A DNA stretch of 54,917 bases from a virus, in IMG/VR virus record IMGVR_UViG_3300042402_002325, positions 1-54,917 of that record; one strand, written 5' to 3'. The notes under the pieces are model-generated. The model saw only the letters and a program-made list of their open reading frames with translations. It was not told the origin of the DNA and searched no databases. The translations under genes were made by a program, and so were the position numbers. Shown one piece after another: positions 17,008 through 46,303 of the stretch (position 1 is the stretch's first letter; every line of letters begins with the position of its first letter).

Positions 17008-17686
17008 AAACGTATCCTCCTCTTTCAGGACTTCCTAAAATATCAATACCAAATTGTTTTGCAAGTTTTTCAATCATTTTTCCAAATCTTCCGTCAAAAG
17101 ACTTATCAAACTCAAGAACTATTCTATTGATCTTTGCTAAAGTTTCGTCTGGAGTATTTATAATAAGGTCAAACTCAGCACCTTCAATGTCAATCTTCAT
17201 AACATCAACCTCTTCAATATTATATTTTAAGAATAAAGACTCTAGTGTTATTGCTAAAACATCTGACTTATCTTCTTCTAGATCTACAATACTACTATTT
17301 CCACCACGATTGCTAATTGAAACCATTTCTTCTTTATGCCATATAGCGTTATTAATTACCACAATGCTTTCAGTAGGATTGTTTTGTATATTTTTGTTAA
17401 GAAGATGCAGATTGTTTGCCTGTGGCTCTACAGCATATACTTTAATTTTTTCAGAGTCGCTCCTATTTTTATTAAAATTATCTACAAAAATACTAACAGC
17501 TCCAATGTTTGCACCAACATCAACAAAAACACCAGCACCATTAAACTGTCCTTGATGTATTCTATAAACATTTTCTATCCATGTTTCGTTAACTACCTTA
17601 AAATCAAGGTTATGATCATAGCTGGGATCTTCTGCGCTTTCTCTTATTTCAAAGGTATAGTTGTCATGAGTTAATATAGATGTCAC
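16991..17686 (-). CDS. FkbM-family methyltransferase
   Basis: 231 residues. VFVDVGANIGAVSIF is SAM motif I, VYAVEPQANNLHLLNKNI motif II, VDVMKIDIEGAEFDLI the FkbM signature. Acts on sugars or other small acceptors in glycan decoration. The GTG at 17686, overlapping the upstream TGA (GTGA) with GAGGAGC 8 bases before it, is a better start than the GTG at 17716. Confidence 0.88.
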   Translation of the reverse strand: MTSILTHDNYTFEIRESAEDPSYDHNLDFKVVNETWIENVYRIHQGQFNGAGVFVDVGANIGAVSIFVDNFNKNRSDSEKIKVYAVEPQANNLHLLNKNIQNNPTESIVVINNAIWHKEEMVSISNRGGNSSIVDLEEDKSDVLAITLESLFLKYNIEEVDVMKIDIEGAEFDLIINTPDETLAKINRIVLEFDKSFDGRFGKMIEKLAKQFGIDILGSPERGGYVYANRY

Positions 17687-18627
17687 AGTCCTAGCTCCTC
17701 TAGTATTTGTTGCCACCTATGTTTATATGTATAGTTATTCTTAACAAACTTGTGTCCTGCTAATCTAATCTTTTCACGTTCATCATCGTGTTTAATGTAA
17801 TAATCAATTAACTCTTGAAGTTGTTGAAAGTTTCCATACTCATAAAAAACAACATGCTCTTTATCTTTAAATTCATTTTCTAAACCATTAATATATGGAT
17901 GAATCAAGAATCCACCACGACCCAAAGTCTCATATATTCTGTCTGACCAGTAGTCAGGATATTTAAAGTCAATGCATAAGGTATCACCAACAACTACTTT
18001 GGTAGACCAGTAAAGCTTATTAAGGTTTATACCACGCACTGACTTAACTCCGCCATTACCGTAGTGTTCAAACCTATTACCGTACGAAGTGTCTAACCAA
18101 TCAATTAATTTTGAACGGTATGGCCATTCATCATGATACTTTTTGCTGCCAACAAATATAACATCGTGTTTTTTGGTAACGTCTCTAATAATACATTCAG
18201 GACCAAATACACCAGCAGGTAAGTAATGTCCTTTAACTTTGGTGTTTTGATTAAACCATTCAGACATTTTTTTATCAACAGTAAAGAAATGATCAATCAT
18301 TTTATATACAGGAAATGACTCTAGGTCTTTTTCTCTTTTAAGGCCAAACCATAGATCAAGGTGATATGTCATGCTTGTAATATTTAAATCTTTTAATGTC
18401 TCAAGCAGCTTTTCCATTGTTATTTTACCTGGTGTATTCCATCCATGCGTATGTATCCAAATAAATAAATCACTCTTTATACACTCAGATAAAATGTCTT
18501 CTGCTTTAGCATCAGACTCTTGCATTCTAATAACTCTGTGTCCTAAGCTTTCTAGTGAGTTTGCGTGATGAGACTCACTTGTGTAGTCAACACGGAAATT
18601 ACCCAAAAAAACTATATTTAACACCAT
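17683..18627 (-). CDS. CgeB-like GT-B glycosyltransferase
   Basis: 314 residues. HDVIFVGSKKYHDEWPYR starts the second domain; YWSDRIYETLGRGGFLIHPY and the following FYEYGNFQQLQELIDYYIKHDDEREKI are typical of CgeB/Glyco_trans_1_2 proteins. First gene of the minus glycan operon, with AAAGGAGAC before the ATG. Confidence 0.85.
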   Translation of the reverse strand: MVLNIVFLGNFRVDYTSESHHANSLESLGHRVIRMQESDAKAEDILSECIKSDLFIWIHTHGWNTPGKITMEKLLETLKDLNITSMTYHLDLWFGLKREKDLESFPVYKMIDHFFTVDKKMSEWFNQNTKVKGHYLPAGVFGPECIIRDVTKKHDVIFVGSKKYHDEWPYRSKLIDWLDTSYGNRFEHYGNGGVKSVRGINLNKLYWSTKVVVGDTLCIDFKYPDYWSDRIYETLGRGGFLIHPYINGLENEFKDKEHVVFYEYGNFQQLQELIDYYIKHDDEREKIRLAGHKFVKNNYTYKHRWQQILEELGL

Positions 18628-20127: not shown

Positions 20128-20640
20128 CTAAGCTGAAAGTATCTTTGCTAATGCATTAACTGTTGCTGCAATTCTTCCGATATCACGCAACTGTTCAACT
20201 GTATAGCCTTCTTCTTTCAATGTTTCATAGTGTGCTTTAACACAGAAATGACACTTACCAACAATAGAAGAAGCAAGAGAGTATGCCTCAAACTTTGCCT
20301 TTGTTGTACCACCATGAGATGCAATTGCATTCATACGAAGTTGTGCTGGTAGTCCAGTAAGATTAGCATCATCTGCCATTTCTAAATATGGATACCAAAC
20401 ATTGTTTTGTGCCATGATTGCCCCTGCAGTTAATGCAGCATTTCTTTCTACCTCGTCAGTTGCACTTGCTGTAATGAAAGCAACAAGCTTACCATTGCCA
20501 GTTGAAAAAGCAGCTGCAAGAGCAAGATATGTAGCATGCTCAGAATCAATAGATGACCTATTAATCACTGCATCAAGATTTAACTTAATGTCTTTTGCAT
20601 ACTCTGGAAGGTTTTCCTTAAGCTGATCAACCCAAGACAT
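20128..20640 (-). CDS. ahpD: AhpD-like alkylhydroperoxidase
   Basis: 170 residues of the AhpD/carboxymuconolactone decarboxylase fold. CHFC (Cys130, Cys133), His137 and Glu118 sit at the positions of the mycobacterial AhpD proton-relay residues. It would re-reduce AhpC or act directly on peroxides. Start overlaps the ahpC stop (TAATG). Confidence 0.92.
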   Translation of the reverse strand: MSWVDQLKENLPEYAKDIKLNLDAVINRSSIDSEHATYLALAAAFSTGNGKLVAFITASATDEVERNAALTAGAIMAQNNVWYPYLEMADDANLTGLPAQLRMNAIASHGGTTKAKFEAYSLASSIVGKCHFCVKAHYETLKEEGYTVEQLRDIGRIAATVNALAKILSA

Positions 20641-21176
20641 TATAGAGTCTCTCCTCCAAGAGGTCTATTGCATGCACAAAGCTCTCCTGTTTGTAGTGCA
20701 TCAAGCACACGAAGAGCTTCATCTGCATTACGACCAACATCAAGATTATTTACTGTAATGTGTTGAATAGTGTTTTCTGGATCAACAATAAATGTTGCAC
20801 GATATGTAACACCAGATGAATGATGGATACCAAGATCTCCAGCTAACTGATGTGCTGTGTCTGCAAATGCCCATGAGTTTGTCTTTTTTAGATCATCATG
20901 TGCGTTACGCCATGCAACCTTACAGAACTCATTGTCAACTGAACCAGTCATAAGAACTGCATCACGATCATTAAAATCATTTACAAGTGCATCATATGCA
21001 ACAATTTCTGTTGGGCATACGAACGTAAAGTCCTTTGGATAAAACACAATGATCTTCCATTTGCCTGGAAAAGAATCTTGCGTTAGTACTTCAAATGAGG
21101 AATCGTCATACGTCAATGCCCCAGGCTTAACTCCAGTAACGGCAAAGTTACCAAGCTTTTCTCCTATAGTTTTCAT
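20640..21176 (-). CDS. ahpC: AhpC-type peroxiredoxin
   Basis: 178 residues. FYPKDFTFVCPTE with peroxidatic Cys54; C-terminal GELCACNRPLGG with resolving Cys167/169, the actinobacterial AhpC style. Detoxifies peroxides and peroxynitrite. AAGGAG precedes the ATG and tRNA-Met lies directly upstream, so ahpC-ahpD sit in a tRNA-flanked unit. Confidence 0.94.
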   Translation of the reverse strand: MKTIGEKLGNFAVTGVKPGALTYDDSSFEVLTQDSFPGKWKIIVFYPKDFTFVCPTEIVAYDALVNDFNDRDAVLMTGSVDNEFCKVAWRNAHDDLKKTNSWAFADTAHQLAGDLGIHHSSGVTYRATFIVDPENTIQHITVNNLDVGRNADEALRVLDALQTGELCACNRPLGGETL

Positions 21177-26739: not shown

Positions 26740-27531
26740 TCATCCATATTTTTTATTATATTGTTTAACAAAGTCAATTATCTTATATTTTTCATGATCA
26801 TGGTCAGCCTTGAATTTACCATGTGTAAAAAGAACGATGTCATTTATTCCAGATTCTTTAAGATTGTTTATGGTTAAGTTTAGCTCATCTGTTGTTGTAA
26901 ACATGATGTCCTGGGGTATCCTGTCTAAACCTTTTAAGTAAGATAAGAATTCTTCATCATCTTCAATAACTGGGCATATTGATACAATTCTTGGCTTGCT
27001 CATTTGCCTAAAACCATCAAACTTTTTGTATGGCTCAAAGCCAACTATATTATAGTCTGCATGCTGCTCAACCAAGGAGAATACTTCCTCTGTCATTCCA
27101 GTTATACATAGCTTGGTTTTGACTCCTCTTTTATCACAAAAGTCATTGAATATAGGTAGGTACTTAGCCATATACTCTTTCCTGTCTTTAAAAGACCTTT
27201 CAAACTCTTCTGGGAACATTGACCCACCAAGGGCTAGCTCCTTTTCTATAATAAAACCTGCAACAAAGTTGATCCAAACTCTGTCTGGCTGGATATCATT
27301 GAGAGACTTAATTATCATGGCCAGGTACTGTGGAGATACAGTATGAGGCCTTACTCCAACAATATACTTTAGCTTTTGGTTAATATCCAGAGCCCTTGCT
27401 ATCTTTATAAAATGACTATTTGAACCAACACCATAGGGTATTAGCATTGCATAAAACCCAGCATCCTCTAACTCTTTTGAGATAACATCTGTAGGGGCAG
27501 TTTCTACTTGATCAAAGAAATAAAAGTTCAT
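26740..27531 (-). CDS. LLM TIM-barrel protein, copy 3
   Basis: 263 residues. LKYIVGVRPHTVSPQYLAMIIKSLNDIQPDRVWINFVAGF is the same signature as copies 1 and 2; LALGGSMFPEEFERSFKDRKEYM follows. ATG 27531 lies 6 bases after TATAAT (minus strand), which rules out the ATG at 27549. Confidence 0.82.
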   Translation of the reverse strand: MNFYFFDQVETAPTDVISKELEDAGFYAMLIPYGVGSNSHFIKIARALDINQKLKYIVGVRPHTVSPQYLAMIIKSLNDIQPDRVWINFVAGFIIEKELALGGSMFPEEFERSFKDRKEYMAKYLPIFNDFCDKRGVKTKLCITGMTEEVFSLVEQHADYNIVGFEPYKKFDGFRQMSKPRIVSICPVIEDDEEFLSYLKGLDRIPQDIMFTTTDELNLTINNLKESGINDIVLFTHGKFKADHDHEKYKIIDFVKQYNKKYG

Positions 27532-27537
27532 GCTTTC

Positions 27538-27543
27538 ATTATA
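27538..27543 (-). promoter_or_regulatory. Leaderless -10 for the 27531 gene
   Basis: Minus strand TATAAT, 6 bases before ATG 27531. Confidence 0.7.
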
Positions 27544-27628
27544 CATCACTTAAAATTTCGGGGAACTTAAAAGAGGCATCGTAATCCCTATAGTAAATAA
27601 CCCCTATATACCTTATAGCCAGATAGGA

Positions 27629-27637
27629 TGATATACT
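27629..27637 (+). promoter_or_regulatory. Extended -10 leaderless promoter for the 27644 gene
   Basis: TGATATACT, 6 bases before the GTG start at 27644. Confidence 0.72.
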
Positions 27638-27643
27638 AAGCCT

Positions 27644-27964
27644 GTGGAGAATATAAACAATATACCTGGAATATGCGAGAAAGAGTGCAGTTGTTGTCCA
27701 AATAGACCACCAGTAAAGCCAACTCCTGCTACATGTACAGGCAGTGGATCAATAGGGCATGAGGAGTGGGAGTATGAAGCAGTAGGCTTTTCTCCATGTG
27801 CAAAGTATGTAGCCCATGCACGAAGTAACCCCTGTGATTTTATTAATAATATGCCTGTTGTAGAGGTTTCTAAAGATCCTCATAAATGTGAATGTGCTAC
27901 AAGCTTTTGTCCATGTGGTGAGTTTTTATCACATTTAATCTCTGAGCCATGCACTGCTAAATAG
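27644..27964 (+). CDS. Cys-rich protein with internal repeat
   Basis: 106 residues, 13 Cys. N-terminal CEKECSCCPNRPP; then two related units, SPCAKYVAHARSNPC and CPCGEFLSHLISEPC, each with C-x3-(Y/L) and a closing PC. No signal peptide, so metal binding is likelier than disulfides. GTG start, leaderless. No family recognised. Confidence 0.7.
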   Translation: MENINNIPGICEKECSCCPNRPPVKPTPATCTGSGSIGHEEWEYEAVGFSPCAKYVAHARSNPCDFINNMPVVEVSKDPHKCECATSFCPCGEFLSHLISEPCTAK

Positions 27965-27983
27965 CCAAAAGAGTGTACCGTTT

Positions 27984-28640
27984 TTAAAAATACGATAGGT
28001 TGTATTTATCAACAAAATCTGTATACTTGATATCTTGACCACAGTTGTCAATGAGGAAGTCTGCAGTAAACCCTGTTTTAAACTCTTGAGTATGCCAAGC
28101 TGAAGTAAACTCATAAGATACTTTATTGGACTTCTCAACTTCATCAATAAACCAATCAAATGTATGCTTTTCGTAGATAGGTACCGCCTTCTTATAAGCA
28201 TCAATTGCATACTGCTCACCAGCTTTTATTATATTTTTCATTATTTCTGATTTTGGTTTGACAGCGTAATTAGCATTGTTTGTGCCCCATCCCCCATTAT
28301 GACTAGATGGGACAACTAATATATCACAGTCTTTTACGCCTTGTAATAAGTAATCAAGAGGTTTTACACATACAGAATCCATGTCTGCGTACACTCCTCC
28401 ATGCTCATAGGTAACTATGTATCTCCATATGTCTGATTGTGTGACTGGCTCTTGTATCAGATAGGACTGCGATAAAATATCATATGACTTGATTGACTCT
28501 AATCTTTCATGATGATTTAAGTACCTATAATCCCATCCAGGGTTAAGGTTTTTCCAGGTTTGTGCTGTCTGCTTAAGATGGATAGGCAGTTCGTCAAATT
28601 CATAGTTATGTGTTTGCCATATGATCTTTGGTACCTGCAT
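27984..28640 (-). CDS. GT32-like (OCH1-type) glycosyltransferase, copy 1
   Basis: 218 residues. VPKIIWQTH, TWKNLNPGWDYRYL, QSDIWRYIVTYEHGGVYADMDSVC (DxD) are hallmarks of Gly_transf_sug transferases. Paralogue at 42979. Leaderless start behind TGATATACT. Confidence 0.88.
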   Translation of the reverse strand: MQVPKIIWQTHNYEFDELPIHLKQTAQTWKNLNPGWDYRYLNHHERLESIKSYDILSQSYLIQEPVTQSDIWRYIVTYEHGGVYADMDSVCVKPLDYLLQGVKDCDILVVPSSHNGGWGTNNANYAVKPKSEIMKNIIKAGEQYAIDAYKKAVPIYEKHTFDWFIDEVEKSNKVSYEFTSAWHTQEFKTGFTADFLIDNCGQDIKYTDFVDKYNLSYF

Positions 28641-28646
28641 TGTTTC

Positions 28647-28655
28647 AGTATATCA
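28647..28655 (-). promoter_or_regulatory. Extended -10 leaderless promoter for the 28640 gene
   Basis: Minus strand TGATATACT, 6 bases before ATG 28640, next to the first DnaA box. Confidence 0.75.
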
Positions 28656-28660
28656 GAGAG

Positions 28661-28714
28661 TTATCCACATGTCAATAGGCTAAAAATACCATAGTTATCC
28701 ACAAGTTATCCACA
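28661..28714. promoter_or_regulatory. Three perfect DnaA boxes (origin-like)
   Basis: TTATCCACA at 28661-28669, 28695-28703 and 28706-28714, all in the same orientation, beside AT-rich DNA (ATATTTTTTATATATGG). In a 390-base gap without genes (28653-29041). Confidence 0.6.
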
Positions 28715-29041
28715 TATAAATCTTACTGATATTTTTTATATATGGTTTACATCTGTCTGGAATATGTCTACTGGGTTATTGAGCTCTTATACAGATGGGG
28801 CCGTAATGTCAACGGCTTTAAAACCTCCCATACCAAACCTTCAAACCTTACATATGGCCTGCATTATATACCCAAACCTCACATTTGTCAAGTATCAAAC
28901 CTTACAAACCTTATATAAAACCATATACAAAATCGTCCGAAATGTCCAATAATATTATATAAAGGTTTGATAATATTTAAAAATATATCAAAAACCAGGA
29001 GAAAAGGTTTGATATCGTAATGTCTTATATACTATAGGGAT

Positions 29042-29266
29042 TTAGAGTGGTAGTTGTTCTTGTATATACCGTCCCGCAGAATGAGTGACAGGATTATTAG
29101 TCACGTTTTGGGCGGGGGACTTAGGAAAGAAAGCTTTAAGAGTTATAACACTATACAACATACCACATATAGCACCAAAGTCTTGATTAAAGATTTCTCC
29201 ATCAGAAGGTTGATCATGGCGATGAGAGCTTTGATTATACATATTAGCAAAATGTCTTGGACTCAT
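29042..29266 (-). CDS. 74-residue hypothetical inside the repeat field
   Basis: MSPRHFANMYNQSSHRHDQPSDGEIFNQDFGAICGMLY shows a His-rich start and a hydrophobic middle. Supported by an extended -10 TGTTATAAT exactly 6 bases before the ATG on the minus strand. A gene here would be flanked by the inverted repeats. Confidence 0.6.
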   Translation of the reverse strand: MSPRHFANMYNQSSHRHDQPSDGEIFNQDFGAICGMLYSVITLKAFFPKSPAQNVTNNPVTHSAGRYIQEQLPL

Positions 29267-29272
29267 AAAACC

Positions 29273-29281
29273 ATTATAACA
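29273..29281 (-). promoter_or_regulatory. Extended -10 leaderless promoter for the 29266 gene
   Basis: Minus strand TGTTATAAT, 6 bases before ATG 29266. Confidence 0.68.
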
Positions 29282-29484
29282 TGGTTTGACAAATAAGGTT
29301 TGATAGGCTAGAATAGGAGATTTTTTTTGGTCGTTCTTAATGTCAAATTAGGAGAAAATTTTTGAGCTGTCGTAATGTCAAAAAATGGGAAAGAAAAGGT
29401 TTGATCGTAATAAGGTTTGAAGAAGTGGTTTGACCACCTCGGGCACAACGGCAGGCTTTTGTCAAGCCCACCGCTGCAGCATTT

Positions 29485-29697
29485 CTAGAATAGTTTGTAG
29501 TTGTTGTAGTGATTGTATTGCTCTTGCTTAGTTGCTTCCGCTGAGTCTGCAATAGTAATTAAACGATTGTAGATTACGTTGGGAGATGATTGGGCAAGAT
29601 GATGTCCCACTAAGTCAAGGTCAAGGCGTAGGTCTGCCAAAACATTGGATAGTTGCATGGCTATCTTTTCTTCTTTGGTTATTAGTTTTCGTCTCAT
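29485..29697 (-). CDS. Small helical early protein
   Basis: 70 residues, MRRKLITKEEKIAMQLSNVLADLRLDLDLVGHHLAQSSPNVIYNRL: a typical actinophage early-region protein, all helical. GGGAGAAC before the ATG; TGATACAAT at minus 29722-29714 is its promoter. Confidence 0.72.
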   Translation of the reverse strand: MRRKLITKEEKIAMQLSNVLADLRLDLDLVGHHLAQSSPNVIYNRLITIADSAEATKQEQYNHYNNYKLF

Positions 29698-29713
29698 AGT
29701 TCTCCCTCAGTTC

Positions 29714-29722
29714 ATTGTATCA
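29714..29722 (-). promoter_or_regulatory. Extended -10 promoter for the 29697 gene
   Basis: Minus strand TGATACAAT with a short leader and GGGAG RBS. Confidence 0.6.
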
Positions 29723-29780
29723 AAAATAAGGGGGGAGCGCAACCCACCACAAATCGCACTCCCCCGTTGCAGCGTCTGCT

Positions 29781-30149
29781 TTATACCGCTGCGTGCTCAG
29801 GTAAATATGCTTGGATAAAGTTATCCCATTTGACGGGCACGGAATCAGTAACAGTTTTATTAACAAAGTCAATAACCACAGTCTGCTCCCCCAGGTCATA
29901 GTTAGTTCCACGGATTGAATAGATTCCAAAACCCGTTTCATCTAGAATGCTATCTTGCATAAGATAACTAATAATCATTCTGGTCCCATATGATGAATCA
30001 TTCCAGCGGGGCTTGGCATGTTCTAAAGCTTTAGCAATGTCAACTTCCCATCCGTCCTGGCCCCAGTGACTGTAAAGTACAACAGATGATGTTGGCTCTC
30101 CTACTGCAGGCTCAGCGTCTTTGAATACAAAGTTAATCCGTGCTCCCAT
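29781..30149 (-). CDS. Hypothetical early protein
   Basis: 122 residues starting MGARINFVFKDAEP, beta-rich (SSVVLYSHWGQDGWEVDIAKALEHAKPRWNDSSYGTRMIISYLM). TAATG overlap with the upstream gene fixes the start at 30149 rather than 30164. Similar proteins occur in actinophages without known role. Confidence 0.72.
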   Translation of the reverse strand: MGARINFVFKDAEPAVGEPTSSVVLYSHWGQDGWEVDIAKALEHAKPRWNDSSYGTRMIISYLMQDSILDETGFGIYSIRGTNYDLGEQTVVIDFVNKTVTDSVPVKWDNFIQAYLPEHAAV

Positions 30150-30346
30150 TACTTTTCCTCCCAATCAAATGACATCATGTCAAGGATTAGTTCTGACAGA
30201 GTATCAATTTTGGTTTGTAGTGTAATCATTGCTGTTAGTTCTTCTGGTGTGTCTGCAACCTCATCAAGTGGAATAAGTTCACATTCCAGTTCATCAATGA
30301 TGGCTTCAATAAAGTTAACAACTTCTAGTAGTGACTCTTTGTGCAT
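30149..30346 (-). CDS. Acidic helical small protein
   Basis: 65 residues, MHKESLLEVVNFIEAIIDELECELIPLDEVAD, acidic and helical. AAGGA before the ATG. No family recognised. Confidence 0.68.
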   Translation of the reverse strand: MHKESLLEVVNFIEAIIDELECELIPLDEVADTPEELTAMITLQTKIDTLSELILDMMSFDWEEK

Positions 30347-30376
30347 TCTTGTTCCTTATCTGTAGTGTGTTCTTCA

Positions 30377-30385
30377 ATTGTATCA
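30377..30385 (-). promoter_or_regulatory. Extended -10 promoter for the 30346 gene
   Basis: Minus strand TGATACAAT with a leader of about 30 bases. Confidence 0.6.
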
Positions 30386-30407
30386 AATAACGTTAACTGT
30401 GTCCAGT

Positions 30408-30638
30408 TCATTCGTCGTCTCCAAGTTCTTCTATGCATGCCGTGCAAAATTCGCCTTCAGGGTCCTGCTTAGGGGCTTCTTGACAGTTATCACAGTCTTG
30501 ATCATCAGTCTCAGTCTCTGCTTGTACCCTGACCCATTCGCATAGTTCACCCTCGTGTACATCTGCAGTAAAATCGCTAATGGCTTTAAACCATCCTTCA
30601 TCAACAGCAAGTTCAATAAGATAAGTAGTCTTAGGCAT
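30408..30638 (-). CDS. Zinc-ribbon hypothetical protein
   Basis: 76 residues beginning MPKTTYLIELAVDEGWFKAI; C-terminal CDNC...CTAC forms a two-CxxC ribbon. ATG 30638 overlaps the upstream gene's stop by 8 bases with GAGGACC upstream; a longer form to 30740 lies inside the upstream gene. Confidence 0.7.
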   Translation of the reverse strand: MPKTTYLIELAVDEGWFKAISDFTADVHEGELCEWVRVQAETETDDQDCDNCQEAPKQDPEGEFCTACIEELGDDE

Positions 30639-31326
30639 GTTGGTCCTCATATCTAGTTTGGTGTACTTCACACATGTCATTGCTCCAGCCACATAGAGGG
30701 CATGGATAGTCTCCACAGTCATCACAACCAGTGATTTCATTATCTAGGTAGGTACCGTCGCAATTACGGCACATGTTGTCATACTGTGACTCTGAGATAA
30801 CTTTACCACGAAGCAGTTCACATTCGCCACCCCAGCCAGTCTCTTCTTCATATGACAATGTAAATAATAAATCAGGGTACTGTTCAGAAAGAGTACACAA
30901 TGCACTCATAGGACGAGACCAAGCAGTCTCAAAGTTATAGTAGACAACATGGTTCTCACCATTGACTGTATCTTCCATATATGTATCAGGATTAGTCTCA
31001 AGAGATGAGACGGCTACATCCCACTTAGTTCCCCAGTTGCGAACATTCCAATCGTACCAATGGTCTGACTTAAACTTCATGGCCTCTTCAAAGTTATCAT
31101 TCTTAGGTTGAGGACCGTCGTATGCTTCCATGTCAGTTGGTTTAATTATATTCCAGAATGCAAATACAGGGTTTGGATATGTTACCTGTTGCTTTTCCAT
31201 TTGCTGTGTCTTTACATTCCATTGGTCATGGACACGAACGAATGGTGAATTCATCTGCTCCATTAACTTCTTTACAGAGTCAGGGCTACCCTCAATGGTA
31301 AGTCCGTTATATACCCAGTTTGGCAT
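30631..31326 (-). CDS. YubB/DUF1281 ferredoxin-like fold protein with zinc tail
   Basis: 231 residues. MPNWVYNGLTIEGSPDSVKKL and RNWGTKWDVAV with YYNFETAWSRPMSAL are the DUF1281/YubB pattern found on plasmids and phages. A C-terminal Cys cluster (CRNC, CDDC, CPLC, C) adds two zinc ribbons. Function unknown. Confidence 0.82.
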   Translation of the reverse strand: MPNWVYNGLTIEGSPDSVKKLMEQMNSPFVRVHDQWNVKTQQMEKQQVTYPNPVFAFWNIIKPTDMEAYDGPQPKNDNFEEAMKFKSDHWYDWNVRNWGTKWDVAVSSLETNPDTYMEDTVNGENHVVYYNFETAWSRPMSALCTLSEQYPDLLFTLSYEEETGWGGECELLRGKVISESQYDNMCRNCDGTYLDNEITGCDDCGDYPCPLCGWSNDMCEVHQTRYEDQHA

Positions 31327-31603
31327 GGTGGTCTCTTTCTATTTGTTGGCGGTCAATACTTAAATTATACGTCAAGGCATACAGTTCTGTCAAGGCTTCT
31401 AGGTACCCCTCAGCATAGGTGCGCTCCATACTATCCATGGCCTCACCTGAATAATCTTCTTGCTCCTGTGCTTCTTGCAACCGTACTTCTGCGTCTACCA
31501 TGGCTACCTTAAGATGACCATGTATTAAATCTATTAGTGGTATAGAGATATCCTCTAAAGCTTTTTCCAAATGCGGCGGTATGAAAGGATAATCTTTACT
31601 CAC
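31307..31603 (-). CDS. Hypothetical helical protein
   Basis: 98 residues, GTG start overlapping the upstream gene by 8 bases; HLEKALEDISIPLIDLIHGHLKVAMVDAEVRLQEAQEQ suggests coiled coil. Overlaps the downstream gene by 20 bases. Confidence 0.65.
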   Translation of the reverse strand: MSKDYPFIPPHLEKALEDISIPLIDLIHGHLKVAMVDAEVRLQEAQEQEDYSGEAMDSMERTYAEGYLEALTELYALTYNLSIDRQQIERDHHAKLGI

Positions 31604-39339: not shown

Positions 39340-39362
39340 AGTATAACAGAGGGGTCTGACAA
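39340..39362 (-). promoter_or_regulatory. TTGTCAG-type early promoter, leftward
   Basis: Minus strand TTGTCA (39362-39357), 11 bases, TATACT (39345-39340); drives the 39289-38545 operon. Confidence 0.76.
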
Positions 39363-39374
39363 ATTGGGGGGTGC

Positions 39375-39387
39375 AAAACGGACATTT
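39375..39387. repeat. AAAACGGACATTT repeat copy
   Basis: Exact match to the copy at 43766 and inverse of the 32415 copy; followed by a second AGGACATT half. Confidence 0.5.
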
Positions 39388-39394
39388 AGGACAT

Positions 39395-39426
39395 TGTGAC
39401 GTAGAACACATGTGACGTACATCATG
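39395..39426. promoter_or_regulatory. Tandem CRP/GlxR-like boxes at the divergent junction
   Basis: TGTGACGTAGAACACA (one mismatch, 39395-39410) directly followed by TGTGACGTACATCATG (two mismatches), between the leftward and rightward early promoters. Confidence 0.5.
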
Positions 39427-39445
39427 TGGATAAACCTGTGGATAA
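39425..39445. promoter_or_regulatory. Two DnaA boxes at the divergent junction
   Basis: TGTGGATAA at 39425-39433 and 39437-39445, inverse of TTATCCACA, spaced 12 bases. Confidence 0.5.
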
Positions 39446-39495
39446 CTGCCCGAGGCGGTGTGGGCTAAATCACATGCGACACGCCGTGTTTGGAC

Positions 39496-44466: not shown

Positions 44467-45186
44467 ATGTCAACTAGCATGGATTTTCCAGGTAAGTCTA
44501 AAAAATATTCAGATAATGTAAACAACTCTTATCAACTTGAGCAGTCAGTTTCTTTTATAGCTGTACCTGGACCACAAGGAGAGCAGGGCCCAAAGGGTGA
44601 TAAAGGCGATTCTGGACCAGAAGGTAAACAAGGACCACAGGGAGAGCCTGGAAAACCTGGTAAAGATGGAAAAAACGGTAGGGATGGAATAGCAGGAGAA
44701 AGCAGCTTGTCTCCATCAGGTCAAAGAACTGGTTGGGCTCTTTATACAAATAAAGATCAAAAAGATATTACTCTTGGTGCAACAAAAGGAAATGATGGCT
44801 GGGTTAGCTTTAGCTTTGATTGTAGGGGCAAGAACAATGAACTTTATTTACCCGAAAATAACGTTTCGTTATATAATTCACAATCACAAAAAATCAACCT
44901 TAAAGCACTAAAGGTGGGATCAATTGTAACAGTACGTTATGATATTATTCTAACTACCCTTACCAACAACACTGAGGTTTGGTTTAGAACCTATATACCA
45001 GAGTCTGATTTTTGGCCTACTACCTTTGCTGGAAACCTAAAATATCAGTTCTCATACGACATGTCACTAGAGCACACCTTTTTTATAGAAAATGACATGG
45101 TTAGAAACTATGGTGGGTTGCCACAAATATTGACAGATAATGATGCTTCAATGGTTGCCAAATCTATTTATATATCTGTTAGGTAA
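44467..45186 (+). CDS. Collagen-like tail fibre protein
   Basis: 239 residues. About 15 Gly-X-Y triplets at residues 35-79 (GPQGEQGPKGDKGDSG..), including Y-position prolines (GEP, GKP), then a beta-rich C-terminal domain (ITLGATKGNDGWVSFSF ... MVAKSIYISVR) probably trimeric. Typical of phage fibres. Y-position prolines are the classic target of prolyl 4-hydroxylases, and eight 2OG oxygenases lie downstream. Confidence 0.88.
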   Translation: MSTSMDFPGKSKKYSDNVNNSYQLEQSVSFIAVPGPQGEQGPKGDKGDSGPEGKQGPQGEPGKPGKDGKNGRDGIAGESSLSPSGQRTGWALYTNKDQKDITLGATKGNDGWVSFSFDCRGKNNELYLPENNVSLYNSQSQKINLKALKVGSIVTVRYDIILTTLTNNTEVWFRTYIPESDFWPTTFAGNLKYQFSYDMSLEHTFFIENDMVRNYGGLPQILTDNDASMVAKSIYISVR

Positions 45187-45210
45187 AATATCAAAAACTG
45201 TATAATCTTA

Positions 45211-45219
45211 TGGTACAAT
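45211..45219 (+). promoter_or_regulatory. Extended -10 leaderless promoter for the 45227 gene
   Basis: TGGTACAAT, 7 bases before ATG 45227. Confidence 0.68.
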
Positions 45220-45226
45220 TACTGCT

Positions 45227-46303
45227 ATGAGTCCTAAAAAGCCTGGTGTCGTAGAAGCGCAAAGTAAGTCAGCACCACTACCACCAACCATTGGGACCGC
45301 TACAGATGTTGGCGGAAATCTAGCTTACAATGCTGGACAAGTATCAGTAACTTTTACAGCACCAACATTTAATGGTAAGCTTCCAATAACTACCTATACA
45401 GTTACTTCATCACCTGGTGGATTTACTAACACAGGATCATCTTCACCAATTGTTGTTGCAGGATTAAATACAGCACCTTCATCCTCTTACACATTTACTG
45501 TTACCGCAACAAATGCAGCAGGAACTTCATCTGCATCAGCTGCATCAAACGCAGTTGCACCAACATCAGTGCCACAAGCTCCAACAATTGGAACAGCATC
45601 TGGAGGAACTTCTGGAGTTGTCTCTGTTCCATTTACAGCTAACAATAATGGAAATAAATCAGTAACAATATTTACAGCAACATCAACTTCTGGGCGTACA
45701 GCAACAAGCGCATCATCTCCTATTGCATTTACAGAAGTAGCAGCAGGAACTTATACATATACTGTTACCGCAACAAATGCAAATGGAACATCTCTTGCAT
45801 CTGCAGCGTCTAATCCTGTTGTTTCTACTTTTGGTCCATTCTTTCCTCCATTCTTTCCATTCTTCCCTCCATTTTTTCCTCCGTTCTTCCCACCATTCTT
45901 TCCACCATTCTTCCCACCGTTCTTCCCACCATTTTTCCCACCGTTCTTCCCATTCTTCCCTCCTTTCTTCCCTCCTTTCTTCCCACCATTCTTCCCGCCA
46001 TTCTTCCCTCCATTCTTCCCGTTCTTCCCTCCTTTCTTCCCACCGTTCTTCCCTCCATTCTTTCCGTTCTTCCCTCCTTTCTTCCCACCTTTCTTCCCTC
46101 CATTCTTCCCATTCTTCCCTCCTTTCTTCCCATTCTTCCCACCGTTCTTCCCATTCTTCCCACCGTTCTTCCCGTTCTTCCCGTTCTTCCCATCATTTGC
46201 ACCACTACCTCCATTCTTCCCACCGTTCTTCCCGTTCTTCCCAGGATTCGTTGGACCGTTCTTCCCAGGATTCGGATCACCAGGTGGAGGATTCTTCGTC
46301 TAA
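45227..46303 (+). CDS. FN3-domain tail protein with long FFPP repeat
   Basis: 358 residues. Two fibronectin type III-like domains (about 19-112 and 113-202, each closing with YTFTVTATNAAGTS / YTYTVTATNANGTS), then residues 203-330 made almost only of Phe and Pro (units PFFPPFF and PFFPFF), ending in a Gly/Phe tail. FN3 domains are common on phage tails; the aromatic-proline repeat is very unusual and could form a polyproline-II rod or a sticky surface. Leaderless start. Confidence 0.82.
   Translation: MSPKKPGVVEAQSKSAPLPPTIGTATDVGGNLAYNAGQVSVTFTAPTFNGKLPITTYTVTSSPGGFTNTGSSSPIVVAGLNTAPSSSYTFTVTATNAAGTSSASAASNAVAPTSVPQAPTIGTASGGTSGVVSVPFTANNNGNKSVTIFTATSTSGRTATSASSPIAFTEVAAGTYTYTVTATNANGTSLASAASNPVVSTFGPFFPPFFPFFPPFFPPFFPPFFPPFFPPFFPPFFPPFFPFFPPFFPPFFPPFFPPFFPPFFPFFPPFFPPFFPPFFPFFPPFFPPFFPPFFPFFPPFFPFFPPFFPFFPPFFPFFPFFPSFAPLPPFFPPFFPFFPGFVGPFFPGFGSPGGGFFV
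45833..46250 (+). repeat. Polypyrimidine CCATTCTTCCC-type tandem repeat
   Basis: The plus strand is about 95% C/T, in units of TTCTTCCC(A/G/T)CC. It encodes the FFPP repeat. Long polypyrimidine strand asymmetry can slip in replication or form triplex DNA. Confidence 0.85.

Follow-up and report, generated by a model that had tools for sequence, protein, structure and literature searches.

Organization of the hub

The window, i.e., the whole stretch of DNA that was analysed, is a single virus record of 54,917 bases with a GC content of 36%. Its phage-type genes include PstS-like, glycosyltransferase, DUF932, and GP88 genes. Two adjacent genes beside tRNA genes (20128-21176), which we take to be AhpD-like and peroxiredoxin-like, are about 98% identical to G002 (114,443 bp), and a proline/phenylalanine-rich tandem repeat of approximately 400 bp with FFP motifs (45835-46243) is situated inside the ORF 45227-46303.

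A candidate origin hub of approximately 800 bases occupies positions 28653-29433. All elements that a preliminary description had placed in this region were found in position, among them three perfect DnaA boxes close together and a leaderless gene amid the repeats, the ATG of which follows a TATAAT box by 6 nt. Absent from that description were the consensus promoter P2, the promoter P3 with its box-holding spacer, and a second tandem DnaA pair. The features are as follows:

28647..28675, minus strand: promoter P3, TTGACA-[DnaA box]-TATACT, for a glycosyltransferase-like gene (27984-28640) whose ATG follows after 6 nt
28661..28669, plus strand: third DnaA box, same orientation as the pair, inside the spacer of P3
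28695..28714, plus strand: tandem pair of perfect DnaA boxes TTATCCACA (28695 and 28706, start-to-start 11 bp), exact match
28715..28750, minus strand: AT-rich flank with the conserved element ATCAGTAAGATTTATA, adjoining the DnaA pair; candidate unwinding or DnaA-extension DNA
28802..28810, plus strand: CGTAATGTC, copy 1
28834..28912, plus strand: left half of the repeat field, CAAACCTT four times (28834, 28842, 28896, 28905) and CAAACCTC once (28873)
28863..28891, minus strand: promoter P2, TTGACA-17-TATAAT, perfect match, pointing at the DnaA boxes
28948..29048, no strand: 100-bp duplex with the third-lowest stability in the window; candidate for unwinding
28962..29011, minus strand: two reverse copies of CAAACCTT, read as AAGGTTTG (starts 28962, 29004)
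29016..29024, plus strand: CGTAATGTC, copy 2
29042..29266, minus strand: leaderless small gene, 74 aa, variable slot; product predicted to form two helices, with a disordered tail (last residues QEQLPL)
29273..29278, minus strand: P1 -10 box TATAAT of the leaderless gene, 6 nt 5' of the ATG, with a CAAACCTT copy at the -35 position
29295..29419, minus strand: three reverse copies of CAAACCTT, read as AAGGTTTG (starts 29295, 29396, 29412)
near 29281 and near 29425: repeat variants CAAACCAT and CAAACCAC, respectively
29336 and 29337: variants of CGTAATGTC, namely CTTAATGTC and TTAATGTC, respectively
29371..29379, plus strand: CGTAATGTC, copy 3
39425-39445 (context 39360-39460), minus strand: TTATCCACAGGTTTATCCACA, a second pair of DnaA boxes in tandem, within a non-coding gap and following GCAAAACGGACATTTAGGACATTGTGACG

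Chance was modelled by 200 dinucleotide-preserving shuffles of the window. Nine copies of CAAACCTT within 600 bp compare to a shuffle maximum of 3, three copies of TTATCCACA within 60 bp to a maximum of 1, and three copies of CGTAATGTC within 600 bp likewise to a maximum of 1. The clustering of the hub elements is real and lies far beyond chance.

The AT content amounts to 78% at 28700-28749, which adjoins the DnaA pair, and to 84% at 28950-28999; the third least stable duplex sits approximately 230 bp from the pair. In an alignment of 27 distinct regions the motif TCAGTAA beside the pair is invariant, with a single first-base change upstream as the sole exception.

Conservation in relatives and phasing of the DnaA boxes

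Searches with the 74-aa leaderless gene yielded 13, then 39, and then 69 viral contigs, which together with the window make up 70 loci. Tandem DnaA pairs, 11-12 bp apart, are present in 66 of these 70 gene-bearing loci; here and in all later pair counts TGTGGATAT was accepted as well, and L063 is thus counted as paired. Two of the four pairless loci (L066 and L076) end before the pair site, and L089 and L090 are devoid of a pair despite enough DNA. The hub also occurs without the 74-aa gene type in two DnaE-bearing contigs, L195 and L201. Near the vacant slot position, both carry G+C-rich inverted repeats of the CCCCCGC...GCGGGGG type (L195 1105-1145, L201 1090-1145).

A gene-independent scan for TCAGTAA adjoining a DnaA box matched at least 120 stretches, and 80 loci were compared. 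Among the matches listed, the tandem pair is present in 71 of the 80 loci. Considering those 62 paired loci among them with at least 300 bp upstream, P2 was observed in 59, ATTACGA in 62, CTCCACT in 58, and at least three copies of CAAACC/GGTTTG in 55, and the gene type of the window was found in only 17 of the 60 listed loci with 800 bp upstream. Judged by these sequences, the hub core is independent of the slot gene, as it is found in many more phages, mostly without this gene. Loss of the repeats in relatives, which the preliminary description had counted against its reading, was not observed; the repeats are kept. BLAST searches against phages gave no match, either for near relatives of window positions 1-25000 or for distant relatives of 27500-31500, and Rfam returned nothing at E up to 1 in 27500-30500.

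For the slot, the repeats, and the phasing, 122 hubs were hand-listed out of the 70 and 80 loci, chosen by a pair or core match plus enough flank, and identical ones were merged. The DnaA pair is present in 92 of the 97 distinct hubs with downstream DNA. A third box within 130 bp accompanies 64 of these 92 paired hubs, in all 64 cases on the same strand and never on the opposite one, at distances from the second box of 20-21, 32-34, 43-44, 52-56, 74-78, and 87 bp. The third boxes are thus phased by approximately 10.9 bp, corresponding to one side of the helix, with P of approximately 5e-5 against uniform distinct distances, a value that serves as a guide only, since related phages and neighbouring distance values are not independent. 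Hence box orientation and phased spacing are conserved, as in oriC-type origins.

Exact DnaA boxes number 2 to 8 per record, and an exact tandem pair was found in 8 of 16 records searched; each of the 8 records without it measures less than 92 kb and may be a fragment. Due to the second tandem pair, located 10.7 kb from the hub, the hub may not be the sole origin of the window. Second tandem pairs were also found in G004, G007, G008, G014, G015, and G016. The sequence GCAAAACGGACATTTAGGACATTGTGACG preceding the second pair of the window resembles CGGACAT repeats that flank the boxes of Streptomyces phage Wakanda.

Repeat field and promoters

Nine of the 13 copies of CAAACCTT in the window are located at the hub, as are 8 of 29 in G002, and most of the non-hub copies in both are intragenic. 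Each of the five AAGGTTTG copies is followed by an A. The preliminary description had proposed either iterons of a replication origin or a repressor-binding field. Taken strictly, the first proposal finds no support, since the repeats are 8-9 bp long, irregularly spaced, and present in both orientations, in contrast to the regular direct iterons of approximately 17-22 bp, overlap promoters, and have no Rep-type initiator gene adjacent to them. The second holds in so far as the repeats overlap promoters, and they may serve origin and repression both.

Of 99 distinct hubs, 83 contain more CAAACC than CAAACA, which is usually missing from them entirely; 13 hubs have more CAAACA (e.g., 18 versus one CAAACC in L284) and three tie. 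CAAACG and CAAACT are rare in all hubs. This change of a letter as a set between lineages implies a binder acting in trans. Due to the fact that the type of slot protein does not track the switch between CAAACC and CAAACA, the binder is probably another protein. The slot protein itself was considered for this role and is unsupported, as similar proteins occur beside CAAACC hubs (L249, L281) and beside a CAAACA hub (L284). Another candidate repeat binder is a phrog_9440 protein, which shows a weak match to HTH domains and is encoded at 17278-17820 (minus strand) in L023 and at 44802-45332 (plus strand) in L104. It is conserved, carries an HTH annotation in Wakanda, and in both phage groups its gene stands within a few genes of that for DnaB. 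In several relatives (e.g., L012, L053, and L249) CTCCACT occurs three times with a 10-bp period between P2 and the DnaA pair, on a strand that is nearly G-free; these repeats are kept in most relatives and missing from the clade of the window.

A centromere-like role or a role in packaging, with a segregation protein or a terminase binding to the CAAACC repeats, is most improbable. Such a site would fit repeats that are clustered, face both ways, and evolve in concert, but it leaves the DnaA boxes unexplained, and a scan of part of the genes showed neither ParA nor ParB.

P2 was searched for with at most two mismatches and spacers of 15-19 allowed. It is situated between the gene and the boxes in 69 of the 70 gene-bearing loci, with a spacer of 17 in all 69, the remaining locus (L076) being cut, and precedes the DnaA pair by 175-240 bp. 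In nearly all relatives TATAAT is found 6 nt before the ATG of the slot gene. Promoters with a DnaA box within the spacer and a leaderless start directly after were observed in 12 of the 97 distinct hubs, window included. The third DnaA box in the P3 spacer suggests that DnaA could control the leaderless glycosyltransferase-like gene.

The overlap of the repeats with both P1 and P2, as well as the third box inside P3 in the window, one of 12 such hubs overall, would also be expected of a transcription-control hub, that is an immunity or early-gene switch with a regulator on CAAACC over P1 and P2 and with DnaA acting only as a transcription factor, e.g., repressing P3. We regard such a switch as unlikely. 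The tandem pair, the phased extra boxes, and the unstable DNA exceed the needs of repression, the 27 aligned regions showed no conserved coding sequence from P2 to the boxes, and the repeats concentrate at the hub and not at promoters genome-wide. A replication origin with promoter-overlapping repeats is the reading that we prefer.

The leaderless gene slot

For the 74-aa protein, AlphaFold predicts helices at residues 4-10 and 22-46 and a disordered tail, at low confidence (mean pLDDT 63). No match was found in Pfam or PHROGs, none in 50,697 phage records, and none of 34 pattern matches in genome contigs was confirmed. Three broad types of slot proteins were distinguished, namely the type of the window (HFA...SHRHD...GMLYS..TLKAFFP), a second type (HFA.YAK.DPK.YQAFSDNMWNSFV...FF.FTP), and a third type ([NY]FSK.GGPYF), some members of which have a hydrophobic stretch. 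Slot proteins mostly share a similar short N-terminus, e.g., MSPRHFA, MPRDHFA, or MGRNYFS. Of the 99 distinct hubs, 86 contain a leaderless ORF of 35 aa or more, a few of these ORFs (e.g., in L075, L213, and L234) being neighbours and not slot genes. Upstream of P2 in the hubs L211 to L285, the slot holds unrelated-looking leaderless small proteins with similar N-termini, some apparently membrane-spanning. As far as can be read from these sequences, the leaderless gene is a variable slot and not part of the origin core.

Within the clade of the window, dN/dS of the slot gene is approximately 1.4 to 1.5, which suggests relaxed or diversifying change. Among the 47 distinct proteins of the window type, 24 end in QL[T/P/S]L[F/W], 5 in QEQLP[L/F], and 18 in neither. 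Apart from the three slot genes, none of the 764 ORFs in G002, G010, and the window has such a C-terminus. We take these motifs (QLxLF or QxxLxL) to be similar to sliding-clamp-binding peptides. An RNA or DNA element in the gene core had been considered as well. The invariance of synonymous sites seen with 9 sequences weakened with 26 (same-codon mean of 0.79 in the gene core versus 0.70 elsewhere), and therefore no such element is claimed.

Replication genes and host

G002 encodes DnaE, DnaB, a DnaG-like primase, RecA, and SSB. The replication genes are located elsewhere in the genome, away from the hub. The closest cultured DnaE proteins, with 55% identity, are those of Streptomyces phages, and thus an actinobacterial host is likely from sequence similarity. 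Domains of DnaA (PF08299) and of the clamp (PF02768) were absent in all five records searched, three of which are fragments of approximately 50-55 kb; controls of these searches were positive in 10 and 11 of 14 genomes.

The missing phage DnaA in these five records and the strong consensus of the boxes would suit a DnaA sink as well, in which the boxes titrate host DnaA and thereby stop host replication. This is very unlikely, given only 2 to 8 exact boxes per record, and titration needs no strict phasing, one-strand orientation, or box-directed promoter.

Box regions of cultured Streptomyces phages

In the Stanwilliamsviridae phage Wakanda, DnaA boxes at 119039, 119051, and 119307 are situated in an unannotated gap of 1.4 kb. 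This box region is matched by 40 Streptomyces phage records (BLASTN), and in many of these the matched stretch carries no annotated feature. All seven regions read (Wakanda, Moab, Gilson, Annadreamy, Comrade, BillNye, and Byblos) contain a box cluster and, approximately 200-270 bp from it, another box; four of them (Moab, Gilson, Annadreamy, and Byblos) have same-strand box pairs 12 bp apart. Such same-strand pairs are shared with the hub of the window, and Moab and Annadreamy have TGTGGATAAACCTGTGGATAACT, which occurs in freshwater relatives as well. In contrast to the hub, neither the CAAACC field nor the leaderless 74-aa gene was seen, the flanking repeats are others, and the GC content of Wakanda is approximately 53%. 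In the Samistivirus phages Braelyn and Paradiddles, only two convergent boxes and one single box were observed near 120-123 kb.

Cluster BE phages are presumed virulent, and clusters BE and BK are sister groups, according to the parts of PMC10690885 available to us; the term "DnaA" is absent from its main text to that extent. Likewise, the available parts of the Coruscant paper (PMC7650747) contain neither "DnaA" nor "origin of replication". Searches of open-access full texts brought up no origin description for Stanwilliamsviridae or the relatives studied here.

A putative origin fired by host DnaA

Most likely, the hub represents the main replication origin of the phage, fired by host DnaA and equipped with promoter-overlapping repeats. 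The origin reading of the preliminary description is thus retained, with the exception of the iterons, on account of the boxes, their phasing, the promoter, and the repeats, conserved in many relatives, and of the box module in cultured phages. GC skew, proposed there as a check, lends no support to this reading, as it follows gene direction and does not switch at the hub; such a switch is usual in chromosomes and not defining for phages.

From anatomy, conservation, phasing, and phage gene content, we infer DnaA binding, DNA opening, transcription, and origin activity. Host DnaA would load on the tandem boxes, then extend over the phased boxes of a single strand, and open the AT-rich DNA beside them. 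The phage DnaB helicase and primase would be loaded on the opened DNA, followed by phage DnaE, which would run on the sliding clamp of the host. Opening or priming may be aided by transcription that starts at P2 and enters the boxes, similar to transcription through ori-lambda. The timing of promoters and origin may be governed by a protein, encoded by phage or host, that binds the CAAACC and ATTACGA repeats, which either overlap P1 and P2 or lie next to them.

Tandem perfect TTATCCACA boxes, phased extra boxes, and AT-rich neighbouring DNA are common to the hub and bacterial oriC-type origins. Different from these, the hub belongs to a phage, lies next to a leaderless small gene and to CAAACC repeats that overlap promoters, and has neither a dnaA-dnaN neighbourhood nor a skew switch. 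In P1 oriR and other iteron origins, host DnaA boxes are located beside a repeat field that overlaps a promoter. This arrangement resembles that of the hub, whose repeats, however, are shorter, irregular, and in both orientations and which has no adjacent Rep initiator. Stoperators of actinophages are short asymmetric repeats near promoters, scattered genome-wide; the hub repeats are likewise short, asymmetric, and near promoters, but concentrated instead of spread over the genome. In lambda, initiation is stimulated when transcription from pR passes the origin, as stated in the part of PMC3985674 available to us. Repeats and transcription passing through the origin are thus features in common, whereas ori-lambda relies on the lambda O and P proteins and the hub has DnaA boxes, with no such genes recognised. 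An earlier example of a small phage protein with an effect on initiation is the prophage protein YfdR, which binds DnaA and moderately inhibits the DnaA-DnaB interaction (PMC4776307, available in part). The parts of the hub are known; their arrangement was not found in print in the open-access texts searched.

It is tempting to speculate further, although we consider this wider picture rather doubtful, that in large actinophages of the virulent type, which have a replisome of their own, host DnaA fires an origin containing a hypervariable slot for leaderless genes. The small early proteins from this slot would keep their N-terminus and swap their bodies; many have a putative clamp-binding tail, by which they would capture the host clamp at the origin or block it there. 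The repeats would switch their specificity as a set, from CAAACC to CAAACA, as expected of origins competing with co-infecting relatives or attacked by host defences.

The finding provides a precise, testable origin for a large group of phages, and since the box module is carried by cultured Streptomyces phages, it is testable now. The hub marks a fast-changing slot for small proteins within the origin, which deserves a separate study. If the reading is true, a phage with a polymerase, helicase, and primase of its own would still rely on host DnaA and the host clamp at its origin.
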